In this document: one piece after another, positions 2,248 to 52,386 of the stretch
Position numbering within the stretch: the first letter of the stretch is position 1
How the letters are laid out: each line of letters begins with the position of its first letter
Origin: Butyricimonas faecalis
Lineage (GTDB): Bacteria > Bacteroidota > Bacteroidia > Bacteroidales > Marinifilaceae
Length of the DNA: 64,000 nucleotides
Assembly: GCF_003991565.1 (NCBI RefSeq)
Contig: NZ_CP032819.1
Location: forward strand, 3,100,001 to 3,164,000
Reading direction: 5' to 3'
Position numbers and translations under genes: made by a program
The notes under the pieces: generated by a model
Databases searched by the model: none
The model's input: only the letters and a program-made list of their open reading frames with translations
Told to the model about the DNA's origin: nothing

Positions 2248-2281
2248 TCTCTTTATTTCGTGAGTTAAAGATAGAAATTAT

Positions 2282-2289: not shown

Positions 2290-2312
2290 TGGCAAAACTT
2301 ATTTAATTGAAG

Positions 2313-3317
2313 ATGATTGTTGGAGGAAAAGATGTAGGAGATCGGCCGTTGATTCTGGCCCCGATGGAGGAGGTTACCAATCCCCCTTTCCGGAAATTCT
2401 GTAAACGCTACGGGGCCGATTGGCTCTACTCGGAATTCGTGTCGGCGGATGCGTTGGTACGTTCTATTAACAAGACGGTTAAGAAGTTGACGATAGAGGA
2501 AAATGAACGTCCGGTGACGATACAGATTTACGGACGGTTTATTGATTCTATGGTCGAGGCGGCCAAAATCGTTGAAGAGGTTCAACCCGATTTTATTGAT
2601 ATAAATTTTGGTTGCCCGGTGAAACGGGTGGCCGCGAAAGGGGCAGGGGCAGGAATGCTCCGGGATGTGCCTTTGATGGTGGAGATGGCCAAACAGATCG
2701 TGCAGGCGGTGAATATTCCGGTAACGGCAAAGACTCGATTGGGGTGGGATTGCGAGCATATTATTATTGATGACGTGGCAGAGCGTTTGCAGGATGTCGG
2801 GATCAGTGCCTTGGCAATACACGGACGGACCCGCTCGCAAATGTATAAAGGAGAGGCAGACTGGGGACCTATTGCCCGGGTAAAACAAAATCCTCGTATC
2901 AAGATTCCGATCATCGGGAACGGGGATATAGATTCTCCACAGAAGGTCAAAGAGGCTTTCGAGCGTTATGGCGTTGATGGGGTGATGATTGGACGTGCAA
3001 CGATCGGGAAGCCTTGGATTTTTGAACAAATTAAACATTATTTGGCAACAGGAGAGATTTTACCGGAGTTGTCTGTTGCGGCCCAGGTTGAGATTATCAA
3101 GGAACAGATTCTGTTGTCCATGGAATGGTTGGATGAGGTGAGAGGTTTGTTCCATATGCGGCGTCACATGGCTTGTATGTTTAAAGGTTTGCCTCATTTT
3201 CGGGATTTGCGGATTCAAATGTTGCAGGCTCCTACCATTGAAGAGTTGTGGGGAGTGTTTGATCAGATTGTAGAGCGCTACGGTTCCATGGATCCCAACG
3301 ATAGGGTGGATGAGTAA
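2313..3317 (+). CDS. dusB: tRNA-dihydrouridine synthase (Dus family)
   Basis: FMN-dependent reductase that converts uridine to dihydrouridine in the tRNA D-loop. The N-terminus has the Dus signature (ILAPMEEVTNPPFR). DINFGCP carries the catalytic cysteine, followed by KTRLGWD, HGRTRSQMYKG and GNGDI, all phosphate/FMN-site motifs of a TIM-barrel Dus. I chose the ATG at 2313 over a TTG two codons upstream because an ATG with a promoter-distance leader is more usual. About 334 residues is the normal length. The nitroreductase follows after 23 bp, probably in the same transcript. DusB is preferred over DusA/C by the overall pattern and Bacteroidales context. Confidence 0.92.
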   Translation: MIVGGKDVGDRPLILAPMEEVTNPPFRKFCKRYGADWLYSEFVSADALVRSINKTVKKLTIEENERPVTIQIYGRFIDSMVEAAKIVEEVQPDFIDINFGCPVKRVAAKGAGAGMLRDVPLMVEMAKQIVQAVNIPVTAKTRLGWDCEHIIIDDVAERLQDVGISALAIHGRTRSQMYKGEADWGPIARVKQNPRIKIPIIGNGDIDSPQKVKEAFERYGVDGVMIGRATIGKPWIFEQIKHYLATGEILPELSVAAQVEIIKEQILLSMEWLDEVRGLFHMRRHMACMFKGLPHFRDLRIQMLQAPTIEELWGVFDQIVERYGSMDPNDRVDE

Positions 3318-3340
3318 GTATAAAAACAAATTAATATTGA

Positions 3341-3958
3341 ATGGAAATGAGAAAATTTAATACCTTTTACCTGTTGCTTGCCGTAGTATTGGTAATTGTA
3401 ATTTTAAAAACATCGTGTATGGGAGAGCAGAAACAAGATGAGGCAACTTTGAAATCAAAGGCTGTCTTGGAAAATATCGCCGAGCGGAAAAGTGTTCGGA
3501 AGTATTTGAACAGGAGTGTAGAGGAAGACAAGATCGATGCCATGGTGAAGGCCGGAATGGCAGCTCCTTCCGGGATGGACAGACGTCCGTGGGAGTTTGT
3601 TGTCGTGACGGATCGGGTGGTGCTTGATTCGATGGCTGCAAAATTACCTTACGCTAAAATGTTGACAGGGGCTCCGTTGGCTATTGTTGTTTGTGGTGAT
3701 ACGACACGTTCTTCTTACTGGTATTTGGATTGCTCTGCGGCAACACAGAATGTATTATTAGCGGCAGAGGCTCTAGGACTTGGAGCCGTGTGGACGGCGG
3801 CTTATCCTTATGAAGACCGGATTGATGTTGTACGTCAGAACACGGGCTTGCCTGAGCATATCGTACCTCTTTGTGTGATTCCAATCGGTTACCCGGATGG
3901 TCCGCAGAAAGTAAAAGATAAGTTTGACCCGCAACGGGTGCATCGGAATAAGTACTAA
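3341..3958 (+). CDS. nitroreductase-family protein with N-terminal membrane/lipoprotein signal
   Basis: 205 residues. Residues 5-25 are hydrophobic and end in a possible lipobox (LKTSCMG), so the enzyme is probably exported and lipid-anchored, unlike most cytosolic nitroreductases. The core has the FMN-binding RKSVRKY motif near residue 49, then AAPSGMDRRPWEFVVV and the C-terminal GLGAVWTAAYPYEDR and IPIGYPD motifs of the NADH oxidase/nitroreductase fold. The substrate cannot be told from sequence. It is downstream of dusB in the same direction. Confidence 0.85.
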   Translation: MEMRKFNTFYLLLAVVLVIVILKTSCMGEQKQDEATLKSKAVLENIAERKSVRKYLNRSVEEDKIDAMVKAGMAAPSGMDRRPWEFVVVTDRVVLDSMAAKLPYAKMLTGAPLAIVVCGDTTRSSYWYLDCSAATQNVLLAAEALGLGAVWTAAYPYEDRIDVVRQNTGLPEHIVPLCVIPIGYPDGPQKVKDKFDPQRVHRNKY

Positions 3959-4020
3959 TTCTCGGCGGAATTTTATACGCTTGTCCATAGCTTAGGGATA
4001 GCGAATGTATTAGAAAAAAA

Positions 4021-4058
4021 GCAACGTCAGAAAGATTCACGGACCTTTCTGACGTTGT
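4021..4058. terminator. bidirectional terminator, 12-bp stem
   Basis: AACGTCAGAAAG (4023-4034) pairs perfectly with CTTTCTGACGTT (4045-4056), between the convergent nitroreductase and gltX genes. Confidence 0.75.
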
Positions 4059-4078
4059 TATGTGTATTGTCTTCAGAG

Positions 4079-5602
4079 TTATTTCAGTGTTGATATAATA
4101 CGATGAAGACGTGTTAAAGTTTCTTCTTTTCCTAGGATTTCGATAATATCAAACATGTGCGGGCCATCAGCAGAGCCGATAATAGCCAAGCGGAAAGGGT
4201 TCATGATCTTGCCGAATCCGACTTCTTTGCTTGCAACCCATTCTTTCACGGCTTCCTCCGTGTTGGGAGAGGTGAATTCGGATACTTTTTCCAGTACGTC
4301 GATGAGTTCTTCCATGAGGGCCGGAGTTTCCTCTTTCCAGCTTTTCTTCACCCCTTTTTCGTCATAAGTTTGAGGGGCATGGTAGAAATACTGGGATGAA
4401 TTGTAGATATCTGCAACGAAGTTGGCTCTTTCTTTCAAAAGACGACAAATCTTTTCCAGTTTTGCCATGTCGTAAGAAATCCCGTCTTTTACTAGGAATT
4501 CGTTTAACTGAATGGCTAGTTCCGCATCGCTTTTTTGTACCAGGTATTTGTGATTGAACCATTTGGCCTTATCGGGGTTGAAACGAGCACCCGATTTGTT
4601 CACGCGTTCCAGCGAGAATTGGTCACACAATTCCTGTAACGTGAAGATTTCTTGTTCCGTTCCGGGATTCCACCCCAGCAATGCCAGCATATTGATGAAA
4701 GCTTCCGGCAGGTAGCCGTCTTCTTTGTACCCGTGCCATTTTTCTCCGGTTTCGGGATCGGTGAATTCCATTGGGAATACCGGGAATCCCATTTTATTTC
4801 CATCGCGCTTGCTTAACTTTCCGTTGCCCACGGGTTTCAGTATTAAGGGCAAGTGAGCGAATTCAGGCATGGTATCCTCCCAGCCGAAAGCACGGTATAG
4901 TAGCACGTGTAGCGGAAGTGAAGGTAACCATTCTTCCCCGCGGATCACGTGGGATATTTTCATCAAGTGGTCGTCAACGATGTTTGCCAGATGATAAGTA
5001 GGCATTCCGTCTGCTTTGAACAAAACTTTATCGTCAAGTAGAGAGGTGTTAAAATGTACCTCACCCCGGATAATATCGTGTAGATAAAGATCTTCGTTTT
5101 CCGGCATTTTGAAACGGATCACGTAGTTTGCCCCGCTATCCAATAGTGTCTTAACTTCTTCGGCACTCATGGTTAGCGAGTTTTTCATGTTCTTCCGGCT
5201 GATGGCGTTGTACATGAATGTTTCGCCTTTTGCCTCGCAGGCAGCCCGTTGCGCACTAAGTTCTTCCGCGGAATCAAAAGAATAGTAGGCATTTCCCGAT
5301 TCCACGAGCTGAAGGGCGTATTGTTTGTAAAGCGGTTTGCGTTCACTTTGGCGATAGGGGCCGTATTCCCCTCCCACGCCCACACCTTCATCGACGGTAA
5401 GGCCGCACCATTTTAATGATTCGATAATATATTCTTCGGCGCCCGGCACGTAGCGGGTTTGATCCGTATCTTCAATTCGTAATAAAAAATCACCCCCGTG
5501 ATGACGGGCAAATAAATAATTGAAAAGGGCTGTTCTCACACCTCCTAAATGAAGGGCTCCTGTTGGACTGGGAGCAAATCTTACTCGTACTTTTCTATCC
5601 AT
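4079..5602 (-). CDS. gltX: glutamyl-tRNA synthetase
   Basis: Class I aminoacyl-tRNA synthetase charging tRNA-Glu. The HIGH-type motif PSPTGALHLGG is at residues 11-21, and the KMSKS-type motif KLSKRDG lies about halfway along. The Rossmann core (LLRIEDTD, DGMPTYHLANIVDDH, HVIRGEEWLPS) and a C-terminal anticodon-binding helical domain are all present. At 507 residues it is full length for the Bacteroidota form. It appears to be the last gene of a leftward group (acyltransferase, 59-aa protein, 106-aa protein, gltX), with a 19-bp gap after the 106-aa gene. Confidence 0.97.
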   Translation of the reverse strand: MDRKVRVRFAPSPTGALHLGGVRTALFNYLFARHHGGDFLLRIEDTDQTRYVPGAEEYIIESLKWCGLTVDEGVGVGGEYGPYRQSERKPLYKQYALQLVESGNAYYSFDSAEELSAQRAACEAKGETFMYNAISRKNMKNSLTMSAEEVKTLLDSGANYVIRFKMPENEDLYLHDIIRGEVHFNTSLLDDKVLFKADGMPTYHLANIVDDHLMKISHVIRGEEWLPSLPLHVLLYRAFGWEDTMPEFAHLPLILKPVGNGKLSKRDGNKMGFPVFPMEFTDPETGEKWHGYKEDGYLPEAFINMLALLGWNPGTEQEIFTLQELCDQFSLERVNKSGARFNPDKAKWFNHKYLVQKSDAELAIQLNEFLVKDGISYDMAKLEKICRLLKERANFVADIYNSSQYFYHAPQTYDEKGVKKSWKEETPALMEELIDVLEKVSEFTSPNTEEAVKEWVASKEVGFGKIMNPFRLAIIGSADGPHMFDIIEILGKEETLTRLHRIISTLK

Positions 5603-5621
5603 TGTTTCTTGATTTTGAATA

Positions 5622-5942
5622 TTATGCCTGTTCGTTTGTTTCCTGGTTGTTGTCGAAATCGAAATCCTCGTCTGAAAATGGTTCCGTGTCTTTCGGTGCT
5701 TTTTCCTGTTCTAGTAATTGATGTAACAGGTCTTTGGCATATTTAATGGCATAACGTTCCGCTTCACTTTTGGAGTTTATGCCACTCTTTATTTGTTCCG
5801 CGTAACTGAACGGGCTATCCGGCCCTTCGGTAAGAAGATAGAGGGTAAAATTACTATGTCGATCCCGACTTTTACTGGTCAGTCCAAACCACATTTCGAT
5901 CGTGCGATCTTCCAAATATATATTGCGCTTGAACTTGTACAT
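5622..5942 (-). CDS. uncharacterised 106-aa cytosolic protein
   Basis: No recognised domain. The N-terminal half looks beta-rich (YKFKRNIYLEDRTIEMWFGLTSKSRDRHSNFTLYLL); the C-terminal half is helical and ends in a very acidic, low-complexity tail (EEDFDFDNNQE-like). The start ATG shares one base with the stop of the 59-aa membrane protein upstream (TAATG), indicating translational coupling in the acyltransferase-gltX group. Such short acidic proteins next to gltX are seen in Bacteroidales, but I cannot name a family. Confidence 0.6.
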   Translation of the reverse strand: MYKFKRNIYLEDRTIEMWFGLTSKSRDRHSNFTLYLLTEGPDSPFSYAEQIKSGINSKSEAERYAIKYAKDLLHQLLEQEKAPKDTEPFSDEDFDFDNNQETNEQA

Positions 5943-6121
5943 TACCTTCTGGTTTTAGGCGGATTTTTGAAATTCAGAATACCTACGGCTACAGCTAGAG
6001 AAGCCATGGCACCCACGTTGACATATACCGCCGTGCGATCTCCACCATGATACATGCTGAGTACGCTGGAAATCATGATCAAGAAAGCGGCTAAGATTAA
6101 TAAGTATTTGGCTATTCGCAT
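5942..6121 (-). CDS. 59-aa small inner-membrane protein
   Basis: ATG at 6121, TAA at 5944-5942. The protein starts MRIAKYLLILAAFLIMISSV and has two hydrophobic segments (residues 4-22 and 33-50) separated by a short polar loop (MYHGGDRT), with a basic tail (PPKTRR). It overlaps the end of the acyltransferase gene by 10 bases and touches the next gene through TAATG. This close packing on both sides, plus a clean two-TM hairpin, makes it a real gene although very short. Function unknown. Confidence 0.65.
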   Translation of the reverse strand: MRIAKYLLILAAFLIMISSVLSMYHGGDRTAVYVNVGAMASLAVAVGILNFKNPPKTRR

Positions 6122-7266
6122 AGGGGTGATGAATAATTGTGTTCAATGGAATTTTTAACGGGGTTGGCATAAATTTCAAGGAAGATGTTGTTCAGAATAG
6201 AACGGTTCCCTTCTAATTTATCCAGTTTTTCAGCCATCACGCGGATAAAGTTTTCTTTTTCCTCGTCATTGTATTTGGATGCGAATTTGTTCGTGCTATG
6301 AAGTAGATCATAGGCAATATAATTATTCGGCCACAATTTGAAGTTCCCTTGAATGCGGGCATCCATGAACGCAGCAAGTTCCGCGATCCGGTCACTATTG
6401 TTGGCTTGTTCGTCGATCTCGATTAGTTCATGGTCGATGGGAGGGGTGATCGCGAAATGAACCCGTCCCTTGAAGCCCGATAAGCCTTGTTGCATGCTTC
6501 GCATATCGGCAGCCGGGGTTTTCACGTATTCTCCCACGGTTTTCTGGTATAATTCGTCTGTTTTCAGATCGTCACAAGGTTCCCATTCGTAGGAAATAGA
6601 TACCGGAACAACCCGGAGTTCTTTAAAGTTTTCCACGAAATCTTTGGGACCACTCATGCGGAACATTTTCAACAGGCTATGCTGCGTGCGGTCGTCACCG
6701 TTCTTTGTACGTCCTTCTTTCTGGGCAATCCAGACGGAATCTTTATTTTCATAAATGACATCCCGCAAGTAGTGGGAACGTAGGTTGGCACTGGTAATCA
6801 TATCTCTTACCGGAAGGCCGCGTTCAATGATGAAACAGGCATCCAGTTTGACCAAGTCGGTAACCCATTTATTGATCAATAGATTACTCCCGATGGCAGC
6901 CTCGCAGTAATGGCAGCCTCGCTCGCACAATAGTACGTTGAGGATGGCAGAATCCAGGATGATATCCCGGTGGTTGGACACAAAAAGATAACTTTTATCT
7001 TTTTCGATGTATTCCAAGCCAGTGACAGTAACTCCTTTGGTCGTTCCGGCAATTAACCGTTGAATGGTCGGACCAAAAAATTGAGCTTGAAATTGCTCTC
7101 TGCTCGTGATGCCTTTTAGTTGTTCTTGAATTTTGCTCTTATCAACTCTTGTCATTTGGGAGAAAAGAGACAGAAATTCTTCTGCTTGACTCAAGCGCTC
7201 TACGGCTGCTGGAATTTCTTCTCCGATATAGGGTCTGATCGCGTTAAATTGGGAATCCGAAGTCAT
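6112..7266 (-). CDS. glycerol-3-phosphate/1-acylglycerol-3-phosphate acyltransferase-superfamily protein
   Basis: 384 residues. The acyltransferase motif NHRDIILD (the NHx4D block) lies near residue 97. Later blocks (WIAQKEGRTKNGDDRTQ and VVPVSISYEWEP) match blocks II-IV of the PlsB/PlsC superfamily. The N- and C-terminal helical extensions are longer than in plain PlsC, making it more like the PlsB-type enzymes of Bacteroidota. It likely acylates a glycerophospholipid precursor or lysolipid at the inner membrane; the acceptor is uncertain. First gene of a leftward, tightly packed set. Confidence 0.8.
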   Translation of the reverse strand: MTSDSQFNAIRPYIGEEIPAAVERLSQAEEFLSLFSQMTRVDKSKIQEQLKGITSREQFQAQFFGPTIQRLIAGTTKGVTVTGLEYIEKDKSYLFVSNHRDIILDSAILNVLLCERGCHYCEAAIGSNLLINKWVTDLVKLDACFIIERGLPVRDMITSANLRSHYLRDVIYENKDSVWIAQKEGRTKNGDDRTQHSLLKMFRMSGPKDFVENFKELRVVPVSISYEWEPCDDLKTDELYQKTVGEYVKTPAADMRSMQQGLSGFKGRVHFAITPPIDHELIEIDEQANNSDRIAELAAFMDARIQGNFKLWPNNYIAYDLLHSTNKFASKYNDEEKENFIRVMAEKLDKLEGNRSILNNIFLEIYANPVKNSIEHNYSSPLCE

Positions 7267-7395
7267 GTTGTAATTTTAGTTATTAGAAATCACGAAACAA
7301 AGATAGGCAAGAAAATTGACATTTGAAAATTGACGGTTGAAAATGAGGAGAGGGAGCCCTAGTTTATACGGGTTATCCATTGGGGGATATAAAAA

Positions 7396-7443
7396 CTGTG
7401 ATTTAGCCATTAAATCTTGGCACCAAGAATGGCTAAATCACAG
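7396..7443 (-). terminator. terminator of the aminotransferase gene, 16-bp perfect stem
   Basis: CTGTGATTTAGCCATT (7396-7411) pairs with its exact reverse complement at 7428-7443. On the minus strand the stem is followed by a T run, as expected for a factor-independent terminator after the gene that ends at 7463. Confidence 0.8.
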
Positions 7444-7462
7444 GATTTTTCAGCTTATCGTG

Positions 7463-8659
7463 TTATACTCTTCCGGGATATACTTCAAGAGCTTTGGCTA
7501 ATGTTTCCATGGCTCCTTTCAATTCCTCGATTTTGAGTACGTAAGCGATACGAACTTCATTTTTTCCAAGCCCCGGGGTAGAATAGAAGCCGCTGGCAGG
7601 AGCAACCATTACGGTTTGTTTGTTGTACTCAAACTCTTCCAGCAACCATTTTGCAAATGTATCAGCATCATCCACGGGAAGTTTTACCACGGCGTAGAAA
7701 GCTCCTTTGGGTTTCGGACAAACAACTCCCGGCATTTTGTTCAGGGCTTCCACCATGAAATCACGTCTTTCGATATACTCGTTGTATACGCTTTCGAAAT
7801 ATTCGGTCGGGGTATCCAACGATGCTTCGGCAATGATTTGTCCGATAGCCGGGGCACACAAACGAGCCATACCAAACTTCAAGGCTGCAACCATTACTTC
7901 TTTGTTGCGGGTTACTAAAGCTCCCACGCGCAATCCGCATTCGCTATATCTCTTTGAAACGGAATCCAAGAGGATAACGTTTTGTTCGATACCTGCCAAC
8001 TGCATGGTGGAGAAATGCTTGTAACCGTCATAACAGAATTCACGATATACCTCGTCTGCATACAAGTACAAATCATGTTTTTTCACGATAACCGCCAGTT
8101 GTTCCAATTCTTCTTTAGAATACAGGTAACCTGTCGGGTTATTCGGGTTCACGATCACGATTCCTTTCGTGCGAGGAGTGATTACTTTCTCGATTTCACT
8201 GATTGGGGGTAAGGCAAAGTTATTCTCGATGGAAGAAGTAACTGTTTTTACCTTCACGCCGCACATTAAAGCGAAAGCCGTGTAGTTTGCGTAGAATGGT
8301 TCGGGGATGATAATCTCGTCACCCGGGTTTAATGTAGACATGAAAGCGATCGTGATGGCTTCGGAGCCTCCGGTCGTGATCATGATGTTGTTTTCATCGA
8401 TATTGATACCGATGTTTTGGTAATATTTGGCTAATTTCTTCCTGTAGGAAATATTTCCTGCAGAGTGAGTGTATGCAATCACTTTTTCGTTACAGTTTTT
8501 TAATGCCTGTAATGCAACATCGGGAGTTGGAATATCCGGTTGTCCGATGTTCAAGTGGTATACTTTGATACCCCTTTCTTTAGCTTTGTCCGCGAACGGA
8601 ACGAGTTTACGGATGGGCGAAGAAGGCATCGCCATTCCTTTTTCTGAGATCTGTGGCAT
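7463..8659 (-). CDS. PLP-dependent aminotransferase, class I/II (aspartate-aminotransferase-like)
   Basis: 398 residues, fold type I. Visible motifs are LNIGQPDIPTPD (N-terminal substrate lid), TTGGSEAITIAF (PLP phosphate site), NPNNPTGYLYS, and VILLDSVSKRYSECGLRVG with the PLP-binding lysine in SK. A C-terminal arginine (EVRIAY) would bind the substrate alpha-carboxylate. The GQPD start is typical of AspC-related enzymes of Bacteroidota. The substrate is not certain (Asp, Ala or an aromatic amino acid). Single transcription unit with its own terminator. Confidence 0.88.
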   Translation of the reverse strand: MPQISEKGMAMPSSPIRKLVPFADKAKERGIKVYHLNIGQPDIPTPDVALQALKNCNEKVIAYTHSAGNISYRKKLAKYYQNIGINIDENNIMITTGGSEAITIAFMSTLNPGDEIIIPEPFYANYTAFALMCGVKVKTVTSSIENNFALPPISEIEKVITPRTKGIVIVNPNNPTGYLYSKEELEQLAVIVKKHDLYLYADEVYREFCYDGYKHFSTMQLAGIEQNVILLDSVSKRYSECGLRVGALVTRNKEVMVAALKFGMARLCAPAIGQIIAEASLDTPTEYFESVYNEYIERRDFMVEALNKMPGVVCPKPKGAFYAVVKLPVDDADTFAKWLLEEFEYNKQTVMVAPASGFYSTPGLGKNEVRIAYVLKIEELKGAMETLAKALEVYPGRV

Positions 8660-8768
8660 AAGTTATTTGAGTTTAAATTTATCCTGTACAAATATAGGCA
8701 TATTGCGTGATTTTAAATCAATATGTTCCTATTTTTTAATGAGAGATAATGCCTAATTGTTTTTTCAT

Positions 8769-9911
8769 TTAAAATAAAGAGACTAAAACATATAGCCAAT
8801 GTGCTGTGACGCCTGCCACTAGACCACCGACGGTGTGCGACAAGATAGCTTTGGAGGTCAGTTCCCGGTAGCCGAGCGAGTCGAGCATGGCCGTGTGAGT
8901 ACTAAGATATCCACTCCAACACATTCCAATGGCAGTAAATACGGCAATGGCATTTCCGTCTATCCAGCCTTCTGTCAAGAAATTGGGAACCAATCCGAGG
9001 GCTGCTCCTACCGCACCCAAGGCTGTGATGGGGAATGCAATCAAGTGCGGATCTGTGAATCCGAACAGCCAGCGGAAGATAAAATCTACTTTATTGGCCA
9101 GCCAAGGAAGAACTTCAACCCCTTGGTAAGCGGCACCCGTGTATCCGTCTGCGCCCGGGCCAAAGGTCAGTATCATAACCAGTGTGGAAATGATCAGCAC
9201 TCCCGGAATGATGGCGATACCGATGTCAACCCCCGTTCGTCCCCCATCAAGCAGTGAGTTGAGGATTCGTAAAAAGAGCGTCTTTTCTTCTTTGCACTCC
9301 ACTTCTACGACAATCTCTTCATCGCAGGCATTTTCTTCCGCGTATTGTGGGTGTGATTTCAGAATGGCGCGTTGCATCAGACGGGTGGAGACGATACAGC
9401 CTATAAATGCTCCGAATAGTCCGATAAACGGTTCAAGAAAGAAACCTTGTCCTATCATGAAAACAATGACCAACAGACCCATACCGAAGGCGGTTCCAAA
9501 GTTGGTCAAGGAGATAAATTGATACTTTTTGAAAAAATTGCTGAAGCGCTTGTCCTGAGACAACGAAATGATGGCCGGGTTGTCTGAAAGGAATGTCATC
9601 ACGGCTCCCAAAGAAGCCACTCCCGGCAGGTTGAATAACGGGCGCATCAGTGGACGTAGCATTTTTTCAAGCAAGTTGACAACGCCAAATTCGACAAACA
9701 ATCGTCCGAGAGCACCGGTTATGACGCAGATGCCCATCAAATAGAACACGGTATTTAGTAATAAATCATGGGCCGTTTTCATGATGGTATTCAACATATT
9801 CGGCGTCCCCATGACAGAAGCAATATACCCGAACAGGGCAAAGATTACGGCAAGGCAAACGATTCCGCTAGGAATGGCTTGCCAGCACCGGCGAAGAAAA
9901 TTTGCAGTCAT
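8769..9911 (-). CDS. nucleoside-recognition (GATE) domain membrane protein, YjiH/SpmAB-like
   Basis: 380 residues with roughly nine or ten hydrophobic segments. Two copies of the Gate-type region are visible: one around residues 50-130 (VITGALGRLFVEFGVVNLLEKMLRPLMRP-like helix and FLSDNPA), the other after the polar central loop (EENACDEEIVVEVECKEEK) at about 230-370. This fits the YjiH/'nucleoside recognition' family, integral membrane proteins of unresolved transport role. The gene follows the porin gene by 22 bp in the same direction, so the two probably form one operon. Confidence 0.75.
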   Translation of the reverse strand: MTANFLRRCWQAIPSGIVCLAVIFALFGYIASVMGTPNMLNTIMKTAHDLLLNTVFYLMGICVITGALGRLFVEFGVVNLLEKMLRPLMRPLFNLPGVASLGAVMTFLSDNPAIISLSQDKRFSNFFKKYQFISLTNFGTAFGMGLLVIVFMIGQGFFLEPFIGLFGAFIGCIVSTRLMQRAILKSHPQYAEENACDEEIVVEVECKEEKTLFLRILNSLLDGGRTGVDIGIAIIPGVLIISTLVMILTFGPGADGYTGAAYQGVEVLPWLANKVDFIFRWLFGFTDPHLIAFPITALGAVGAALGLVPNFLTEGWIDGNAIAVFTAIGMCWSGYLSTHTAMLDSLGYRELTSKAILSHTVGGLVAGVTAHWLYVLVSLF

Positions 9912-31639: not shown

Positions 31640-31674
31640 ATAACGGGAATTTTTAGGGATTAAATTCCCGTTAT
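31640..31674. terminator. bidirectional terminator at the mutS end
   Basis: ATAACGGGAATTT (31640-31652) pairs with AAATTCCCGTTAT (31662-31674), followed by a T run on the plus strand. It overlaps the mutS stop codon. Confidence 0.75.
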
Positions 31675-34275
31675 CTTTTTTATCTCGTTCAATTTATTCA
31701 ATGCTTCAAGAGGGGTTAGGCTGTTGATGTCGAGTCCGGCTATTTCATCCCGAATCTGTAATAGCACGGGATCTTCCAGTTGGAAGAAACTAAGTTGAAT
31801 GCCTTCCCTTTCGTTTCCTATTTTAGCAACGTTTTTTTGTATTGCTCCACTTGAATTCCGGTCGTTTTCGAGTTGCTTCAATATCTCGGATGAACGTTTG
31901 ATGACGGATTGTGGCAGACCAGCCATTTTACCGACCTGTATACCGAACGAGTGGTTGGAGCCGCCTTTCACCAGTTTGCGGAGGAATACAACCTTGTTGT
32001 TCACCTCTTTTACCGATACGTTGAAATTCTTGATCTTCGGATAAGAATGTTCCATTTCGTTCAGTTCGTGGTAATGGGTGGCAAAGAGGGTCTTCGCTCT
32101 GTTTTTCGAGTTTTCGTGTAAAAATTCGACGATAGCCCAAGCAATGGAGATACCGTCATACGTGGAGGTGCCTCGTCCAAGTTCATCGAATAGTACAAGA
32201 CTTCGATCGGAGATGTTGTTCAAGATGTTGGCAGCCTCGTTCATCTCTACCATGAAGGTGGATTCTCCCAAAGAGATGTTGTCGGACGCTCCAACGCGGG
32301 TGAAAACTTTGTCAACATACCCGATCTTTGCTGATTTGGCAGGGACAAAACATCCGGCTTGGGCCATGATCACGATGAGTGCCGTCTGGCGTAAAAGAGC
32401 GGATTTACCTGCCATGTTGGGCCCTGTGATAATGATGATTTGTTGTTTGTCGTTATCGAGGTAGAGGTCGTTGTCGATGTAGTTTTCTCCCGGAGGCAAC
32501 TGGCGTTCAATGACCGGGTGGCGTCCTCCTTTTATATCGATCACGAAAGATTCGTTGATTTCCGGTCGATGATAGTCATTGGTGATCGCTATGTTGGCGA
32601 ACGAGATGAGAGCATCGATGTGAGAGATGACGCGGGCATCCAACTGTATCGGTTTGATGTAGGAGGCTGCCGTTGCCAGCAGGGTGTTGTATATGTCACT
32701 TTCTAATTCTTGAATCCGGTCTTCAGCCCCGAGAATCTTTTCTTCGTATTCTTTTAGCTCTGGAGTGATGTAACGTTCGGCGTTGACAAGGGTCTGTTTG
32801 CGTATCCAAGTATCGGGAACTTTGTTCACGTGAGTTTTGGTCACTTCAATGTAGTAGCCGAAAACATTGTTGAAGCTGATCTTTAATGTTGGTATTCCAG
32901 TATTCTCTATCTCACGTTGTTGCATTTTTAGTAGAAGTTCTTTTCCGTGAGAAGAGATTTCTCGCAATTCATCCAGTTCGGCGTTGACTCCGGGAGCGAT
33001 GACATTTCCCTTGTTGAGCATTGAGGGGGCATCTTCCTTGACTTCATGTTCTATTCTTTGGCTCAATGTTTCGCAATCATCCAGTTGTTGCATCCATTTA
33101 GCAAGGACTTCGTTTCCGGTAGATAAGCATTGCTCTTTCAACGGTTTGATGGATTGCAATGCAATTTTTAGTTGAACCATTTCTCTTGGAGAGATACGAC
33201 CGACAGCGATTTTGGAGGCGAGGCGTTCCAGATCTCCGATGGTGCGGAGAATTTGTTCCAGTTCCAAACGTTCCGTTTCGTGATGCACGAAACATTCCAC
33301 GATGTCCAACCGTTCGTTTATGTCTGCCGGTTTTTTCAGGGGCATACACAGCCAACGACGCAAGGTGCGTGAGCCCATCGGGGTGATGGTTCGATCGATG
33401 ATGTCTGCCAAGGAGCTTCCTCCTTCGTGCAGGGTATCCAAGATTTCAAGATTACGCAGCGTGAAGCGATCCAGCAAGACGCAGGTTGATTCGTCGATGC
33501 GGGAGATCGAGGTGATGTGTCCCACTAGTTCGTGCTTTGTCATGTCGAGGTAGTACAATATTGCACCTGCAGCGGAAATACCGCAGTCCATTTTATCAAT
33601 ACCGAATCCCTTTAGCGACGATACTTCAAAATGCTTTTTGAGACGATCTGCCGCGGATTCTGTTTCAAAGAACCATTCCTCGATCGGGTAAGTGTAGTAT
33701 TTTGTCCCGAAGAGTTCGTTGAAGCGGGCTTCCGAACCTTTCGGGTAAAGCACCTCCTTGGGTTGGAAGCTGTTTAATATTTTATCCATCGTGGCGGGAC
33801 TGCCTTCTGTGGTTAGGAATTCTCCCGTGGAAAGGTCCAACAGGGACAATCCGGCTTTGGTTTTTGTGAAATACACGGCAGCCAAAAAGACGTTGTTTTT
33901 GTTGTCGATGGTGTTTTCATTATAGGAAACCCCGGGGGTAACGAGTTCAATGACTCCTCTTTTTACCAGTTTTTTCGTCTTTTTCGGGTCTTCCAGTTGT
34001 TCACAGATGGCTACCCGTTGTCCCGCACGTACCAATTTGGGCAGATACGTGTCGATGGCGTGATAGGGGAAACCGGCAAGCTCCACGTCTCCCGGAGAGC
34101 CATGGGAACGTTTGGTGAGCGTGATGCCTAATATCTTGGACGTAAGAATGGCATCTTCACCGAAAGTTTCGTAAAAGTCACCCATTCGATATAATAAAAT
34201 TGCATCGGGGAATTTAGCTTTTGCCGAATAATATTGTTGCATAAGCGGTGTTTGCTCTTCTGACTTTGTTGCCAT
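31660..34275 (-). CDS. mutS: DNA mismatch repair protein MutS
   Basis: 871 residues, full length and uninterrupted. The mismatch-binding domain starts [34 protein letters not shown], with the conserved Phe-x-Glu (FYE) that stacks on the mismatch. The ATPase domain has Walker [15 protein letters not shown] and Walker [17 protein letters not shown], followed by ATHYHEL. MutS starts mismatch repair by recognising mispairs and small loops. The protein looks functional, but its upstream region is joined to an integrated element whose left end (34328) is 53 bases from the start codon. Confidence 0.97.
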
Positions 34276-34327: not shown

Positions 34328-34335
34328 CAAAAGTA
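34328..34335 (-). promoter_or_regulatory. probable -7 element of the mutS promoter (TACTTTTG), inside the attachment core
   Basis: Perfect TAnnTTTG on the minus strand, giving a leader of about 45 bases before mutS. It is the first 8 bases of the 22-bp repeated core. Neither the present upstream sequence (element) nor the reconstructed original one (39170 onward) shows a clear TTTG at -33. Confidence 0.5.
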
Positions 34336-34349
34336 AATATTTTGATTGA
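34328..34349 (+). repeat. left attachment site of the integrated element (22-bp direct repeat)
   Basis: Identical to 39148-39169. Its core has inverted arms around a 7-base spacer: TCAAAA-GTAAATA-TTTTGA (34327-34345), the usual shape of a tyrosine-recombinase crossover site. Confidence 0.85.
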
Positions 34350-34444
34350 ATAATTTGCGAGGTTGACTTAAAAATGAACAATATCTGTTTATCAGTAGTT
34401 TAGCTAAAATTATTGTACTCGTATCTTTTCTTTTTTATCACGGG

Positions 34445-34480
34445 TGGAACAGTTTCATGGAACAGTTTCATGGAACAGTA
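34445..34480 (+). repeat. 13-bp direct repeats upstream of the integrase
   Basis: TGGAACAGTTTCA at 34445-34457 and 34458-34470, then TGGAACAGTA as a partial third copy. The position, about 100 bp inside the left end and just before the integrase gene, suits arm-type integrase or excisionase binding sites. Confidence 0.8.
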
Positions 34481-34530
34481 ATTTGTATAAATGTTTGATT
34501 GATAAATGTGTTTGCAAATTTGAGAAAATT

Positions 34531-36078
34531 ATGGATAAACAGTTTTTTGTTGATAATCTGCACCAAAAATTTCACATTCGCAATGTGGATAAAAATGGAT
34601 TAGGTACTCTTTATGTGATTTATAGTTTGGGTGATTTTCGCATAAAATTGAGTTTACGAATAAAAATATACGTTGAACAGTGGAACAAAAGACTTAATCG
34701 TGCATACATAAGCGAAGTGTTAACCCCGCTTGATAACATGAATAATAATATCGTAAATCAAAAAATATTACGGCAGCAAAATGTTTTTGAACGACTAAAA
34801 TTATATCTTTGTGAAAATCCGGAAAGCATAAAATGTATTGAATTTGTTTTGAAAAAATTTTTTTACAACGATATGAAAGTATCCAAAAAACTACCTCCTG
34901 TATTGCAAATGAGACGTTATGTTAGAGAGTCTAATAATCTAAAGGAGTCTTCTAAAGAAAGGTATAATGAAGGTATTAATGTGTTTGAAGACTATCTAAT
35001 GACAAATAATATTAAATTGAATGTATTTGAAGATTTAGATTATAATGTGTTTGTTAATTATATCGATTATTTATTCAATAGACGTACTTTGGCAGGAACA
35101 ACATTAGCAATAAATACTATTCGTGATAGGATTAATCAATTAAGAATTATTTTACGTGGATGTGAATATTTGAATGATAAAATATTGCATTATAAATTAC
35201 CGAAAAAAAAGGGTGATAATGTGCAAGTTTATTTGGATGAGAATGAAATTAGAAGAATTTATGATTTGAATTTGAGTGGTAAAGAAGAGCGAGTGAGAGA
35301 TGTATTCGTATTACAATGCTGGACCGGACAGCGATATTCTGATATGTGTAATTTTAGACGGGAAAGCTTAAAAATAGAAGATAGTGGTATAAGAATAAAA
35401 TTAATTCAAAGTAAAACGGGAAAATTAGTTGAAATACCTGTTTTTAATGAATTAGCGATTAATATTTTGAAAAAATATAATTTTCAGATTGATTTCCTCG
35501 AAAAAAGCTCGTCACTTGCAACGCAAGTATTGAAAATAATAGCGAAAAAAGCAAAGATTGTAGATGTAATATTAAAGAATGTACAACGAAAAGGGGGGAA
35601 TGTTATAGAAAGAAAATATAAATATGAAATGATAGGTACGCATACAGCTCGCAGAAGTTACATTACAAATATGCTAAAAAAAGGGTATACTAAGGAAGAT
35701 TTAGTTAAAATAACGGGGCATAGTAATGGAAGTAGTTTTGATGTATATGATAAACAAACATCACATGATGTTACAGAGAAAATACTCTCAAAAGAATCAA
35801 ATAAGGCTACTAGTACTACTAATAATGCTGACAATATGATTAGAGAAGTTGTTGAATTAGCTCAAAAAAATGTTTTATTGACTCAAGAAAATAAACAAAT
35901 AGAACAAGAATATGTTGATATAAAAAGAAAATTGGATATAATAACTTTTGACTCTATTTGTGAAGAATTAGCCATGGAAATTCCAAGCGAAAATGATTTT
36001 ATTGGAAAAACTACAGACGGAGAGTGGATTACGGATGAGGAGGTGAAAAAGCAAAGAAAAGAAAAAAAGAAAATTTAA
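34531..36078 (+). CDS. tyrosine-type site-specific recombinase (element integrase)
   Basis: 515 residues from the ATG at 34531; the frame is open 29 codons upstream but crosses the 13-bp repeats, so I chose the internal Met (MDKQFFVDNLHQKFH). It has an N-terminal arm-binding domain, then a SAM-like core-binding domain (ESSKERYNEGINVFEDYL) and the catalytic domain. Catalytic residues are R268 (CWTGQRYSD), H371 and R374 (GTHTARRSY), H397 (ITGHSNG) and nucleophile Y406 (DVYDKQ). The tail after Y406 is about 109 residues with a coiled-coil stretch (LTQENKQIEQEYVDIKRKL), longer than usual for Bacteroidota integrases. Presumably it catalyses integration and excision at the 22-bp core. Confidence 0.92.
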   Translation: MDKQFFVDNLHQKFHIRNVDKNGLGTLYVIYSLGDFRIKLSLRIKIYVEQWNKRLNRAYISEVLTPLDNMNNNIVNQKILRQQNVFERLKLYLCENPESIKCIEFVLKKFFYNDMKVSKKLPPVLQMRRYVRESNNLKESSKERYNEGINVFEDYLMTNNIKLNVFEDLDYNVFVNYIDYLFNRRTLAGTTLAINTIRDRINQLRIILRGCEYLNDKILHYKLPKKKGDNVQVYLDENEIRRIYDLNLSGKEERVRDVFVLQCWTGQRYSDMCNFRRESLKIEDSGIRIKLIQSKTGKLVEIPVFNELAINILKKYNFQIDFLEKSSSLATQVLKIIAKKAKIVDVILKNVQRKGGNVIERKYKYEMIGTHTARRSYITNMLKKGYTKEDLVKITGHSNGSSFDVYDKQTSHDVTEKILSKESNKATSTTNNADNMIREVVELAQKNVLLTQENKQIEQEYVDIKRKLDIITFDSICEELAMEIPSENDFIGKTTDGEWITDEEVKKQRKEKKKI

Positions 36079-36248
36079 CTCCTTTTCTTTTCCTGCCAAA
36101 ACTTTTTCATAGCTTTTGATATCGCCTTTTTGTGTTCATTACTTTTTTGTTGATTTCTTAGAGCCTCTTTTATGTGTTTTCTGTGTGTTGCCGTTTTTTT
36201 CTTGTTTTTCATTTTTAGACTTATTTTGTGTTTAGTAATCTCATTCAT
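36075..36248 (-). CDS. 57-aa basic protein with NUMOD3-like DNA-binding motif
   Basis: ATG at 36248, TAA at 36077-36075, overlapping the integrase stop by 4 bases in convergent orientation. The protein is dominated by Lys/Arg/His. Its C-terminal half, HIKEALRNQQKSNEHKK followed by AISKAMKKFW, resembles the repeated NUMOD3 motif (HKKKISEALK type) found with homing endonucleases and phage DNA-binding proteins. A DNA-binding accessory role, perhaps recombination directionality, is possible but unproven. Confidence 0.45.
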   Translation of the reverse strand: MNEITKHKISLKMKNKKKTATHRKHIKEALRNQQKSNEHKKAISKAMKKFWQEKKRS

Positions 36249-36271
36249 AAGTTTTTTTAATAAATATCAAT

Positions 36272-36289
36272 AAGTAGATAAGTTTGTTT
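36272..36289 (+). repeat. 18-bp repeat, copy 1
   Basis: AAGTAGATAAGTTTGTTT, identical to 38867-38884 and in the same orientation. Similarity extends a few bases upstream (TAAATAT) with a small gap. Confidence 0.85.
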
Positions 36290-36518
36290 CTCTATCAGAA
36301 AAAATTTTGTAAAAAAATACACGTCAAACAGACATATGGTAAATAAGATAGAATGTACTCAATTTGTGAGAGAAAGGATACACTATAAATGACGTGTCAA
36401 TAAAGAGCTACAAATTTAATGTAGTAGATAAAATTACGGTCTAATAATAATATAATTATATTAAAAAATGTTTTCTTTAAATTAGAAATAAACACTCTGT
36501 AATACACATGATAAACTG

Positions 36519-36550
36519 TTTGTTTGATAAATAAATAAGTTATATATTTG
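36519..36550 (+). promoter_or_regulatory. promoter of the 84-aa gene
   Basis: TTTG (36519-36522), 20-base spacer, TATATTTG (36543-36550). Confidence 0.55.
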
Positions 36551-36576
36551 TCGTGTTAACTTTAAAATTTAATATT

Positions 36577-36831
36577 ATGGCACGTCCAAAATCAAAAAAT
36601 TTAACAATTTTCGAGAAATTACAAAAGAAAGAATCTATAGACTATTCTGAATATACTTATAAACAGCTTGGTGAGGCTATAGAAGAAATTTTCAACAAAT
36701 ATGTAGAAGAAAGAGATAGAAAAGTGTCACTAAAAGATTTGGAAAACGTCAAAAAATTGTGTGATAAATTAGGCGAATCTGTCAATAAATTAATCTCTCC
36801 AAATACACACGATTCAGATAAAGCAAGTTGA
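36577..36831 (+). CDS. uncharacterised 84-aa element protein
   Basis: Start set at the ATG at 36577 (MARPKSKNLTIFEKLQ); the frame opens 8 codons earlier but that start is too close to the promoter. The protein is mostly helical and charged (GEAIEEIFNKYVEERDRKVSLKD-like, two likely helices), starting with a short basic ARPKSKN patch. No family recognised. It has its own promoter. Its place between integrase and serine recombinase suggests a small regulator or accessory protein (inference). Confidence 0.6.
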   Translation: MARPKSKNLTIFEKLQKKESIDYSEYTYKQLGEAIEEIFNKYVEERDRKVSLKDLENVKKLCDKLGESVNKLISPNTHDSDKAS

Positions 36832-36988
36832 TAGTAATGTGTCAAAGAATGATATTATTAAGTATCACATTTTGATACTTCGTAGACTCAATTATTGTTG
36901 TGTAATCAAATATATAGTGTAATCAAATAAATCTATTTTTGTTTGTTGATTACATTATATTTTTGTTATCATTTTTATCAAAGATTAT

Positions 36989-37019
36989 TTTGATAGTATA
37001 CTAAAAATACCTATCTTTG
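36989..37019 (+). promoter_or_regulatory. promoter of the serine recombinase gene with operator-like repeats
   Basis: TTTG (36989-36992), exactly 19 bases, TATCTTTG (37012-37019). GATAGTATA occurs inside the spacer (36992-37000) and again at 37042-37050 just before the start codon, and CTATCTTT/AAAGATAG form an inverted pair across the start site. Autoregulation is plausible. Confidence 0.6.
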
Positions 37020-37049
37020 TTTTGTTGAAAAATGAAATAAAGATAGTAT

Positions 37050-37682
37050 ATGAAAAAAGCAGTTATATACGCACGAGTAAGTTCAATTACAGACCGCCAA
37101 AATACCGACCGTCAAGTCGTCGATTTAACAAGATATGCAGAATATTCCGAACATAATATAATAGAAATATTCGAGGAAAAAATAAGTGGTGGAAAACGTA
37201 ACGTTGACCGTCCTGTGCTAACGGAATGTTTAAATTATTGCAAGGATAATAATATTGACGTATTATTAGTTTCGGAGTTATCAAGACTTGGAAGAAATGC
37301 TTTTGAAGTACTTTCAACAGTTAAGTTTTTAATTGATAATTGTATTAATCTTTATATACAAAAAGAGCAATTTAGTTTATTGAACGATGAGGGGAAACCA
37401 TCTATATTTGCCCCTGTGATGATTGCTACATTAAGTACTTGTGCCGAATTAGAAAGAGAAAATATTAAATTTCGTTTGAACAGCGGTAGAGATTTGTACA
37501 TCAAAAATGGTGGAAAACTAGGACGAAAAGCGGGTTCAATAAAAACATTAGATATGAAAAAAGAAGAATATAAAGAGGCTATATCTTTATTGAAAAAGGG
37601 TATAAGCGTGCGTAATGTGGCTAAATTAACGGGAAAAGGAACGGCAACAATACAGAGAATAAAGAAAGAATTTAATCTATAA
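37050..37682 (+). CDS. small serine recombinase (resolvase/invertase family)
   Basis: 210 residues. The catalytic serine is S11 in AVIYARVSS. The rest of the resolvase domain follows: DRQVVDL, the conserved acidic/Arg block VLLVSELSRLGRN, and the E-helix with ELERENIKFRLNSGR. The C-terminal helix-turn-helix (KKGISVRNVAKLTGKGTATIQRIKKEF) is the Hin-like DNA-binding domain. The length is that of resolvases and invertases rather than large serine integrases. It may resolve dimers of the excised element, or act on the 18-bp repeat sites (inference). Confidence 0.9.
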   Translation: MKKAVIYARVSSITDRQNTDRQVVDLTRYAEYSEHNIIEIFEEKISGGKRNVDRPVLTECLNYCKDNNIDVLLVSELSRLGRNAFEVLSTVKFLIDNCINLYIQKEQFSLLNDEGKPSIFAPVMIATLSTCAELERENIKFRLNSGRDLYIKNGGKLGRKAGSIKTLDMKKEEYKEAISLLKKGISVRNVAKLTGKGTATIQRIKKEFNL

Positions 37683-37785
37683 AAATATCCCCTTCAATCA
37701 TTTCAAATGGTTGGAGAGGATATTGTATTTATTTTCAATGTCTTATATTGCAAAATCTCCTCTCGCAGGTATATTGTTTATATAC

Positions 37786-38680
37786 TTACAAATCCAATAA
37801 GTCTATTACATTTTCATTTTCCCTCCAATAAACAACTTTATGCAATGCCATATTTAAAAGTTGAAATAAAAACTTTTCATCAAAAAGAAATGATAGTATT
37901 CTATCATCATGAAAATAATCTATATCAAAATTATTAAGAATTGCACATAATTCTCGCATACTAACATTTGTAATTTCAGCTTCAATTCGATAAAGTTTAT
38001 CATAATTGAACCCTAACCAACTATTAATTACAGGTCGTTTTTCGGGGGAATGCTCTTTCAATTCTCTATCTTTATCATACATACGTATTTTTATACCATT
38101 ATCTTTGATTTGACCGAAATACAAGGTAGGAATTTTATGTATCTCATTTCTACTACAACCTTTCGCAATCACCCAATCTTTAATTGTTTGATTGGGATTA
38201 GTTATTTTTTTTGCCATTATATATCATATCGAAACTTATATCTTTTCGCATCCGTTGTACTTGATAAATGTAGTTACGAGTGGTAGTCAATGCAGGAGTA
38301 ATTAACGTTATATTATTAAATTTTATATGAAAACAGCTCAATACATAAGGTAAATAATGACGTAACATTGTATATAGTGCATTGTTTTCTATATTCAAAA
38401 ATATCATTCCATGATATTTCCCTTTTTCTTTCTTCCTATGAACAGATAAAGTACCCAATAAAAATGTTTTATCATTATCTGGAATTTCAATATTAACTAT
38501 TTGTACATCCTCATCACTTTCTTTTTCTATCCGAAATGTATAAAAATTAGCCTCATTTCCCTCACCCCACCATAGTATATTACTACCATTCAATAGGCGT
38601 TCAAATAACACATTTTCCCTCTCATCTGTAAAACATAATTTGACTGCATCAAGCCCTATTTTAAATTTGTCATTTTTCAT
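37786..38680 (-). pseudogene. replication-initiation (Rep_trans/RstA-like) protein, split by a one-base frameshift
   Basis: Two overlapping frames: 38680-38198 (160 aa) and 38217-37786 (143 aa). The first ends YNGKKNN; the second begins MAKKITNPNQ. Removing one A from the A8 run at 38205-38212 joins them as YNGKKITNPNQTIKDW. The fused protein of about 300 residues has TLYFGQIKDNGIKIRMYDK near its middle, reminiscent of the T.Y.GS...RIYDK block of rolling-circle initiators. YDKLYRIEAEI follows, like the W.R.E.E segment. This family identity is moderate. Alternatives are two separate proteins or programmed +1 slippage. Confidence 0.5.
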
Positions 38681-38866
38681 TTTGTAGTGTATTTAATTTT
38701 CTTATTTTACAATATCTTTTCATGGAATTTTAATTCTATTTTGTCCTTTCAAGGAGTTGTTAATATTTTTCTTGTATTACCATTTGCAATGTGTATTTAA
38801 TAGCTTATTTCGTATTTTTTTTCTAGTATTTGTTCATTCATGTTATAATATTTTACTATAAATATG

Positions 38867-38901
38867 AAGTAGATAAGTTTGTTTTCAATACTTATCTACT
38901 T
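38867..38901. repeat. 11-bp inverted repeat with 18-bp repeat copy 2
   Basis: AAGTAGATAAG (38867-38877) pairs perfectly with CTTATCTACTT (38891-38901) over a 13-base loop. The left arm is the start of the 18-bp repeat also present at 36272. The structure lies directly before a perfect -7 element (38908-38915). It could be an operator, a rolling-circle origin hairpin, or a recombinase site. Confidence 0.75.
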
Positions 38902-38907
38902 TTTTCC

Positions 38908-38915
38908 TATATTTG
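38908..38915 (+). promoter_or_regulatory. -7 element TATATTTG downstream of the hairpin
   Basis: Perfect TAnnTTTG, reading toward a short frame at 38941. A TTTG lies 26 bases upstream, longer than the usual spacing. Confidence 0.45.
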
Positions 38916-38940
38916 CCTTAAAACTTTAATGTCATGTTTT

Positions 38941-39123
38941 ATGAATATTGAAAATACAATAAACAACGAATTTGAAGTAAATGAGGATATTGTAAAGTAT
39001 TGACTTGAGAGGTGGCGATACGAAGTTTTAAACTTTGGAGAATGGAATTGTAATAATTTTTGTTGGGGAAATTTTTGAGAGTTGATAGATAAGGAACATG
39101 ATATGGGTACAGTTGATAAGTAA
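38941..39123 (+). pseudogene. short reading frame with two in-frame TGA codons
   Basis: From the ATG at 38941 the frame reads MNIENTINNEFEVNEDIVKY, TGA, LERWRYEVLNFGEWNCNNF..., TGA, ELIDKEHDMGTVDK, TAA. Apart from the two TGA codons it looks protein-like over about 60 residues and follows a promoter. It is probably a decayed small gene of the element. Confidence 0.3.
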
Positions 39124-39147
39124 GTTGTTGTGTGTTAATAGCGCAGG

Positions 39148-39169
39148 CAAAAGTAAATATTTTGATTGA
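39148..39169 (+). repeat. right attachment site of the element (22-bp direct repeat)
   Basis: Identical to 34328-34349. Flanks differ immediately on both sides, as expected for a duplicated crossover core. Confidence 0.85.
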
Positions 39170-39318: not shown

Positions 39319-40203
39319 ATGATGTATATGGAAAATGTATTGGATGCATTGGCTCTTTACGGGTATTTGAATTTAGAGGATCGGATCGAATTTGAGTTGG
39401 ATGGGGTGATCGAGAAAGAAATTGCTCCGGCTTATTGTAATGAGAATTTTGAATTGTGTATTTCATGTATGGATTATACTTCGTTGAAGGTGACGGATAC
39501 GGAGAAATCGATTGTGACTTTTGTTTCTGAATTGCTGAAAAAATTGAAAAAGAACACCTTGCCGGATGTGGCATCCGTATGTGTGTTTCCCCGCTTCACT
39601 TCTCTCGTGAAGGAATGTCTGGTCGGGACTCCGATTAAAACGACGGTCGTGGGAGCTTGTTTTCCGGCAGCACAGACATTTTTGGACGTGAAGTTGGCCG
39701 AATGTAAGGCGGCAATTGCGGCTGGAGCGGATGAGGTGGACGTTGTGATTTCCGTGGGAGATGTTTTGGAGTGTAATTACGAGAAGGTATATAAAGAGTT
39801 GGTCGCTATCCGCGAGGCTTGTGCGGGGGTTGTTTTGAAGGTAATTTTGGAAACGGGCGAATTGAAAACTATCGAGAGTGTGTTCAATGCCTCGTTGATT
39901 AGTGCTTACGCGGGGGCTGATTTTGTTAAAACGTCTACCGGGAAGGTTCCGGTAAATGCCACTCCAGAGACCGTTTACGTGATTTGCGAGGCTTTACGTC
40001 AATTCCACGCACAGACCGGGAAGATGGTTGGAATTAAGGTGGCCGGAGGTATCACCAAGATTCAAAATGCGATTCGTTACCTTACGATTGTGAAACATAT
40101 TTTAGGCGAGCAATGGCTTACGCCTGCTTATTTCAGAATCGGAACATCTCAGTTGTTGGAAGATGTTCTGAAAGAGATGAAAACAGTAAAGATTAATGGC
40201 TGA
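39319..40203 (+). CDS. deoC: deoxyribose-phosphate aldolase
   Basis: Cleaves 2-deoxyribose-5-phosphate to glyceraldehyde-3-phosphate and acetaldehyde in deoxynucleoside breakdown. 294 residues, slightly longer than the enterobacterial form. TIM-barrel motifs are VCVFPRF, KAAIAAGADEVDVVISVG, VILETGEL, and DFVKTSTGKV with the Schiff-base lysine, then GIKVAGGI. ATGs at 39322 and 39328 are alternative starts. Divergent from mutS across the integrated element. Confidence 0.95.
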   Translation: MMYMENVLDALALYGYLNLEDRIEFELDGVIEKEIAPAYCNENFELCISCMDYTSLKVTDTEKSIVTFVSELLKKLKKNTLPDVASVCVFPRFTSLVKECLVGTPIKTTVVGACFPAAQTFLDVKLAECKAAIAAGADEVDVVISVGDVLECNYEKVYKELVAIREACAGVVLKVILETGELKTIESVFNASLISAYAGADFVKTSTGKVPVNATPETVYVICEALRQFHAQTGKMVGIKVAGGITKIQNAIRYLTIVKHILGEQWLTPAYFRIGTSQLLEDVLKEMKTVKING

Positions 40204-52290: not shown

Positions 52291-52362
52291 GCCCTTGTAG
52301 TTCAACGGATAGAACGGAAGTTTCCTAAACTTTAAATGGCAGTTCGATTCTGCCCGGGGGTA
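52291..52362 (+). tRNA. tRNA-Arg (anticodon CCT)
   Basis: Cloverleaf by eye: acceptor GCCCTTG pairs with CGGGGGT (with G-U pairs), D-stem GTTC/GAAC, anticodon stem GAAGT/ACTTT with loop TTCCTAA and anticodon CCT, T-arm GGCAG-TTCGATT-CTGCC, discriminator A. CCA is not encoded, as usual in Bacteroidota. It reads AGG codons. Confidence 0.92.
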
Positions 52363-52386
52363 CTAAAAAGGTAAAAGTTAAAGATT

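Follow-up and report, generated by a model that had tools for sequence, protein, structure and literature searches.

A 4.8-kb integrative element with a broken initiator gene at a promoter-like core upstream of mutS in Butyricimonas faecalis

What is the AT-rich block between mutS and deoC in Butyricimonas faecalis, and did it enter an arbitrary gap or a particular sequence? We analyzed a 64,000-nucleotide stretch of this genome (assembly GCF_003991565.1, contig NZ_CP032819.1, positions 3,100,001 to 3,164,000 of the forward strand; referred to as "the window," with positions counted from its first letter), for which an earlier note, made from the letters alone, had proposed a small excisable element just upstream of mutS. 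Very probably, a 4.8-kb integrative element inserted site-specifically at a promoter-like core in front of mutS, and it now persists as a gene module with a broken initiator gene. The element is real, mobile in origin and ordinary in kind; its target is unusual.

The block lies between mutS (31660..34275, minus strand; complete, 871 aa) and deoC (39319..40203, plus strand), both host genes identified with NCBIfam, and it is bounded by an exact 22-bp direct repeat, CAAAAGTAAATATTTTGATTGA. The left copy (attL, 34328..34349) and the right copy (attR, 39148..39169), neither of which has a strand, differ at no position, just as the earlier note had read them. In the whole genome, allowing up to 3 mismatches, these are the only copies (2 forward, 0 reverse; a reversed-pattern control gave 0 and 0), and about 2e-5 exact pairs of at least 22 bp are expected by chance per 6 kb at matching composition. 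The inserted length is 4,820 bp. The content of guanine plus cytosine is 0.278 within the element and 0.429 in the remaining window, in agreement with the AT-richness noticed before. The crossover-site shape that had been described for the core, 6-bp arms around a 7-bp spacer, holds for the spacer but not entirely for the arms, which are 5 bp long inside the repeat (CAAAA and TTTTG around GTAAATA), with a sixth pair at the left copy only (T at 34327, G at 39147). A tRNA or other RNA gene as the target of the core was considered and rejected, the window's one tRNA lying far off at 52291-52363.

The left flank of the element was found in every one of the six genus genomes, among them that of the window, and in all five others (our labels G001 to G005) the mutS-side and deoC-side flanks abut at one copy of the core. 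This copy is identical to the window core in G001, has 1 mismatch in G002 and G004, and is diverged in G005 (4 substitutions) and in G003. Removal of the block predicts a mutS-deoC gap of 223 bp, and the empty gaps in three relatives measure 219, 223 and 222 bp. Because the flanks abut and the gap lengths match the prediction, the 4,820-bp insertion is well supported. Thus, an element integrated between mutS and deoC, a target other than a tRNA gene and empty gaps of about 223 bp were all found as foreseen, and the observation that would have spoken against them, the lack of any relative with an empty site, was not made in any of the five genomes. The same core occupied by other cargo, also foreseen, was not seen, as no searched integrase-relative locus adjoined mutS or deoC. 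As a separate observation, a near copy of the 22-bp core, mostly with 1 mismatch, is present once per genome in 8 of the 9 genomes of a second genus of the family (g10; G026-G029 and others), and at the three loci read (L166-L168) it does not lie beside mutS.

As judged from conservation, the insertion target is a promoter-like mutS sequence, which is more specific than the mutS-deoC gap named earlier. On the mutS strand, the core reads TCAATCAAAATATTTACTTTTG, and its part CAAAATATTTAnnTTTG, containing TAnnTTTG, is conserved 5' of mutS in the host family. The primary sigma factor of Bacteroidota has TAnnTTTG as its -7 consensus (PMC7366714; this paper and those cited below were available in part). 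Among the mutS loci compared (from 30 of the 55 family genomes with a match), the motif stands 20-140 nt 5' of mutS in 28 of 30, own locus included, and it is the most constant feature there. A 17-base part, CAAAATATTTACTTTTG, is found 5' of mutS with up to 2 mismatches in 15 of 29 family relatives and with up to 4 in 24 of 29, its distance from the start codon side of mutS ranging over 22-124 nt. Outside the family, where 28 mutS loci were compared (from 145 genomes of the order with a match), none has it within 2 mismatches and two have it within 3. The column counts of the motif come from rows picked by motif similarity (24 of the 29 relatives) and are thus inflated; the unpicked figure is the 28/30 for TAnnTTTG. 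The gene deoC adjoins mutS in 28 of 30 family loci, the window being one of the two exceptions.

In the window, TACTTTTG (34328..34335, minus strand), inside attL and 52 nt from the mutS start, is the predicted -7 box of mutS on the strength of its sequence, its conservation in the family and the published consensus (PMC7366714). This box and the 52-nt leader stay with mutS, and the left end of the element replaces a family-conserved block. These features suggest that the core is the mutS promoter.

The gene content is that of an integrative element, and the tyrosine integrase, the small serine recombinase and the Rep-like gene that the earlier note had recognized are all present, the last one broken into two open reading frames (ORFs). 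The tyrosine integrase (34531..36078, plus strand, 515 aa) matches PF00589 at 2.9e-12 and has all residues of the catalytic set R-K-H-R-H-Y, which is conserved in 17 of 17 aligned rows. Its best relative outside its own cluster has 38% identity among the matches listed (7997 candidates); at E 1e-30 it was found in 2 of 56 family genomes (own and G002) and at E 1e-45 in 1 of 295 genomes of the order (own). With an integrase of its own and site-specific insertion between direct repeats, the block has one of the features expected of an integrative and mobilizable element (IME). The small serine recombinase (37050..37682, plus strand, 210 aa; PF00239, 4e-31) is related to the Mpi-type invertases, the nearest NCBIfam family, at a score below the cut-off (NF009949; 85.5 bits versus 272, E 3.9e-24). 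It may have served to resolve multimers or to invert a segment.

The N-terminal half (38198..38680) and the C-terminal half (37786..38217) of the rolling-circle-initiator-like gene, both on the minus strand and recognized as ORFs by comparison with intact relatives, lie in different frames and overlap by 20 nt at a run of eight A. The relatives are single ORFs of 289-328 aa. Two acidic residues, D/D in all 13 of the 13 family rows and E/D in a plasmid relative, are both missing from the window protein. Because the initiator gene is broken, the element probably no longer replicates by itself. The protein has the pT181-type Rep fold, and its C-terminal half scores below the cut-off of PF02486 (Rep_trans; 17.2 versus 29.6 bits), as does the Rep relative of plasmid pRGF00029 (17.9 versus 29.6). 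The claim that the element has no mobility genes of its own stands in part: no canonical relaxase was found in its six ORFs (Pfam, PHROGs and NCBIfam), but the fold of the broken Rep-like protein places it in a group that contains the MobT relaxases. No Pfam family matched the Rep relatives at two other loci (L050 and L021), and no NCBIfam family was found for two members tested. The 177 proteins found for this family, of which the named ones are labelled hypothetical, point to an unnamed family of rolling-circle initiators.

Most likely, the insertion would have come about as follows: the 22-bp core on a circular form of the element recombined with the same core before mutS, with the element's own tyrosine integrase as the most likely catalyst; the -7 box and the leader would have been left on mutS, while the upstream part, including the family-conserved block, would have been exchanged for element DNA; and the original element would have consisted of the integrase, the small serine recombinase, an ORF resembling NUMOD3 and the rolling-circle initiator, a set recurrent in other Bacteroidales. 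The intact ancestral Rep would have replicated the circle or nicked it to allow its transfer, in the manner of MobT (PMC5704250). We infer that the element's own integrase carried out the insertion; the element may still be able to excise, and the insertion may alter mutS expression.

Parts of this gene set were found together in other Bacteroidales (loci are given by our L numbers). The 57-aa NUMOD3-like ORF (P57; 36075..36248, minus strand) has homologues that adjoin Rep, in either order, in L050, L021, L130, L131, L133 and L134, not in L132; the NUMOD3 match itself was obtained only for the relative in L020, below the cut-off. Rep and a small serine recombinase occur together in L050, L130, L132 and pRGF00029, the recombinase in L130 being 72% identical to that of the window. 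The integrase next to the module differs: L050 and L021 have a tyrosine integrase of the same clade, L132 has a large serine recombinase, and L130 has a distant tyrosine integrase. No convincing direct repeat was found around L015-L021, L050, L094, L130 or L132, and a 15-bp repeat in L014 was rejected as an element border, one copy lying within an ORF and being taken as chance. Because bounding repeats were not found elsewhere, the module holds together as one element family in the window and in G002 only; at the other loci it is a gene association, not yet a delimited element.

The element in G002 (L135; G002:C1:254000-270000, positions 2151-8795), from the same genus, is bounded by a 26-bp exact repeat, ATAAAAGCCTTATTTTTGCAGGTGCA, with its copies 6.6 kb apart. 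It contains an integrase that is 31-32% identical to that of the window, a serine recombinase, a 57-aa-type ORF and a 469-aa protein with no Pfam family. It lies between phoH (minus strand) and mazG (plus strand), its core ends 67 nt before mazG, and this core contains TATTTTTG, a TAnnTTTG facing mazG. In the five remaining genus genomes, one of which is that of the window, the flanks abut at an empty site; the empty core is identical in three of them and has 3 substitutions in two, with TATTTTTG retained in all. In both elements, the integrase points away from the host gene whose box is in the core, and the cores read in gene sense, CAAAATATTTACTTTTG (mutS) and TAAAAGCCTTATTTTTG (mazG), agree at 12 of 17 positions. 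The G002 integrase has Leu in place of the second catalytic His and gave no PF00589 match at E 0.01, and as its sequence stands it may be impaired. Just 5' of mazG (L135, about 8806-8840), a dispersed repeat of about 35 bp was also noticed, which each of the six genus genomes matches at 23-46 places.

These two cases raise the possibility that integrases of this kind may use promoters as attachment sites. Since TAnnTTTG occurs on some strand in 544 of 7718 (7.0%) of the window's 24-nt intergenic stretches, its presence in two of two cores is suggestive, not proof. We consider it unlikely that a Bacteroidales integrase clade generally targets the sigma-ABfr -7 boxes of genome- and nucleotide-maintenance genes and forms a reversible mutation-rate switch. 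Under such a rule, occupancy would set mutS or MazG output because the core holds the -7 box and the remaining promoter is swapped when the element inserts and restored when it excises.

Several observations weigh against the proposed insertion or against a promoter rule. None of the five compared relatives carries the element, and horizontal spread of exactly this element was therefore not seen. By eye, no -33 TTTG stands 19-21 nt 5' of the -7 box at either the empty or the occupied site, and the mutS promoter is for this reason a prediction only. The support comes from comparison of assembled sequences, in which excision is unobserved. Serine recombinases, P57 and Rep occur without the clade integrase in L130, L131 and L134, and no repeat bounding the module was found in L050, L130 or L132. 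Finally, two cases (mutS and mazG) make no rule, and most other clade integrases inspected do not fit. Among the neighborhoods of eight further integrases (L014-L020 and L050), only L015 has a divergent host gene with a TAnnTTTG facing it; L014, L018, L019 and L050 have no TAnnTTTG in the 420 bp scanned, and those in L016, L017 and L020 run mostly in the integrase's own direction (L016 has one further on the other strand, with no divergent gene). In L015 (Bacteroides faecis MAJ27, 7800-7992), the clade integrase is divergent from tsaB, the product of which was confirmed as TsaB by NCBIfam, and the box, TAAATTTG, precedes the likely start of tsaB by about 24 nt; the attachment site is not delimited, and comparison with relatives from another genus gave no alignment at this place.

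It is plausible that the element is a passive relic, which entered by means of its integrase, is now fixed, and sits at a merely tolerated point without effect on mutS. The split Rep gene without its two acidic residues, the absence of a cargo gene of evident use, and the intact mutS and leader are all consistent with this notion. The full-length integrase and serine recombinase speak against it, as do the repeats, whose identity at 22 of 22 bp points to an insertion that is recent or that little time has passed since then. Slightly less plausible is a non-canonical IME in which the Rep_trans-like protein served as both relaxase and replication initiator, as in MobT, with a resident conjugative element moving the circle. 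The pT181-type fold fits, MobT relaxases belong to that group, and the Firmicutes IMEs of the MobT/Rep_trans type likewise combine a tyrosine integrase with a rolling-circle-initiator-like protein and, in streptococci, integrate at the 5' ends of housekeeping genes (PMC5704250). The genome also has a 51-kb plasmid with conjugation genes. However, the element differs from those IMEs in its host order (Bacteroidales), in a Rep that is both below the PF02486 cut-off and broken, and in its extra serine recombinase and NUMOD3-like ORF; it has no coupling protein and no known origin of transfer (oriT). Independently of this, the plasmid (contig C2 of G000, L262; 51,017 bp) is exactly as long as NZ_CP054001.1, a plasmid of Bacteroides fragilis that covers 82% of the first 18 kb of contig C2 with 98.4% identity.

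Two further explanations carry less weight. A small phage or phage satellite, with an inovirus-like Rep and packaged by a phage, is improbable: a Foldseek comparison with viral models did link the Rep to Inoviridae proteins (E 2e-8, one of them named REP), but no structural, morphogenesis or packaging gene was found in the six ORFs with PHROGs and Pfam, and Rep relatives were absent from 50,697 phage records and from viral contigs (0 of 26 candidate stretches). Insertion by the host XerC/XerD at a dif-like site is very improbable, even though the core combines an AT-rich spacer with short inverted arms, and such an insertion is on record for a small element next to mutS in the same order, the Bacteroides provirus BMV1 (PMC3091885). 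BMV1 is a microvirus provirus with a 13-bp repeat at a dif-like site and, in the available text, no integrase (PMC3091885), whereas the present element has a complete integrase of its own. The element at mazG, moreover, uses a different core. Chromosomes have one dif as a rule, and the core described here is instead a family motif linked to mutS. Site-specific insertion at a promoter-like mutS core by an integrative element accounts best for the observations overall.

Mobile elements in mutS have been described in Vibrio and other Proteobacteria (PMC5296598). Like the present element, those elements, with sizes from 4 kb, bear an integrase and change the upstream sequence that drives mutS; unlike it, they are inserted into the coding sequence, at the HTPMMQQ motif, and supply a start of their own (PMC5296598). 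Here, in Bacteroidota, the insertion is 52 nt before the start codon, at a -7 box, with mutS complete, and it is known from sequence, not from phenotype. SpyCI of Streptococcus pyogenes also combines an integrase with the 5' end of a mismatch-repair gene and has a stated effect on transcription, but it is a phage-like island that lies inside the 5' end of mutL and excises in a growth-dependent manner (PMC3430984). Another close match is plasmid pRGF00029 from rat caecum (HG796787.1; PMC3913684), which has an intact Rep relative, a single ORF that both window halves match in adjacent stretches, and a related serine recombinase; it is a free circle of 4.1 kb that has a second initiator, of the Rep_3 type, and three annotated coding sequences, none of them for an integrase (PMC3913684). 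In the open-licence literature, as far as it was available, we found no description of an element at a Bacteroidota mutS promoter and none of a Rep_trans integrative element in Bacteroides matching this one.

In Proteobacteria and streptococci, elements in the coding sequences of mutL and mutS are known switches of mutation rate. If true, a mutS-promoter core would extend this idea to a major gut phylum, with promoters in place of coding sequence. Pairs of occupied and empty sites are at hand at two loci, mutS and mazG, and the unusual target makes an effect of the element on mutation rate experimentally testable. With respect to mutS itself, a stretch of more than 7 kb is present in two near-identical copies elsewhere in the genome (G000:C1:1043155 and G000:C1:3658505; L265 and L266), each with a 158-aa ORF that resembles the first MutS domain (42% over residues 10-94).

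The remaining features are minor. An 84-aa ORF with no assigned function (36577..36831, plus strand) has 4 homologues in all; one marginal PADLOC match (E 0.0064) was not credible, and defense cargo was rejected. MT838022.1 ("Bacteriophage sp.") was likewise discarded as a relative of the whole element, the serine recombinase alone being matched. A 20-bp imperfect palindrome 5' of the serine recombinase gene (36907..36965, no strand; fold z -4.6) is a candidate recombinase or regulator site, and a hairpin (38867..38901, no strand; z -7.6), which contains one of two 18-bp repeats (the other at 36272-36289), is a candidate origin or terminator.

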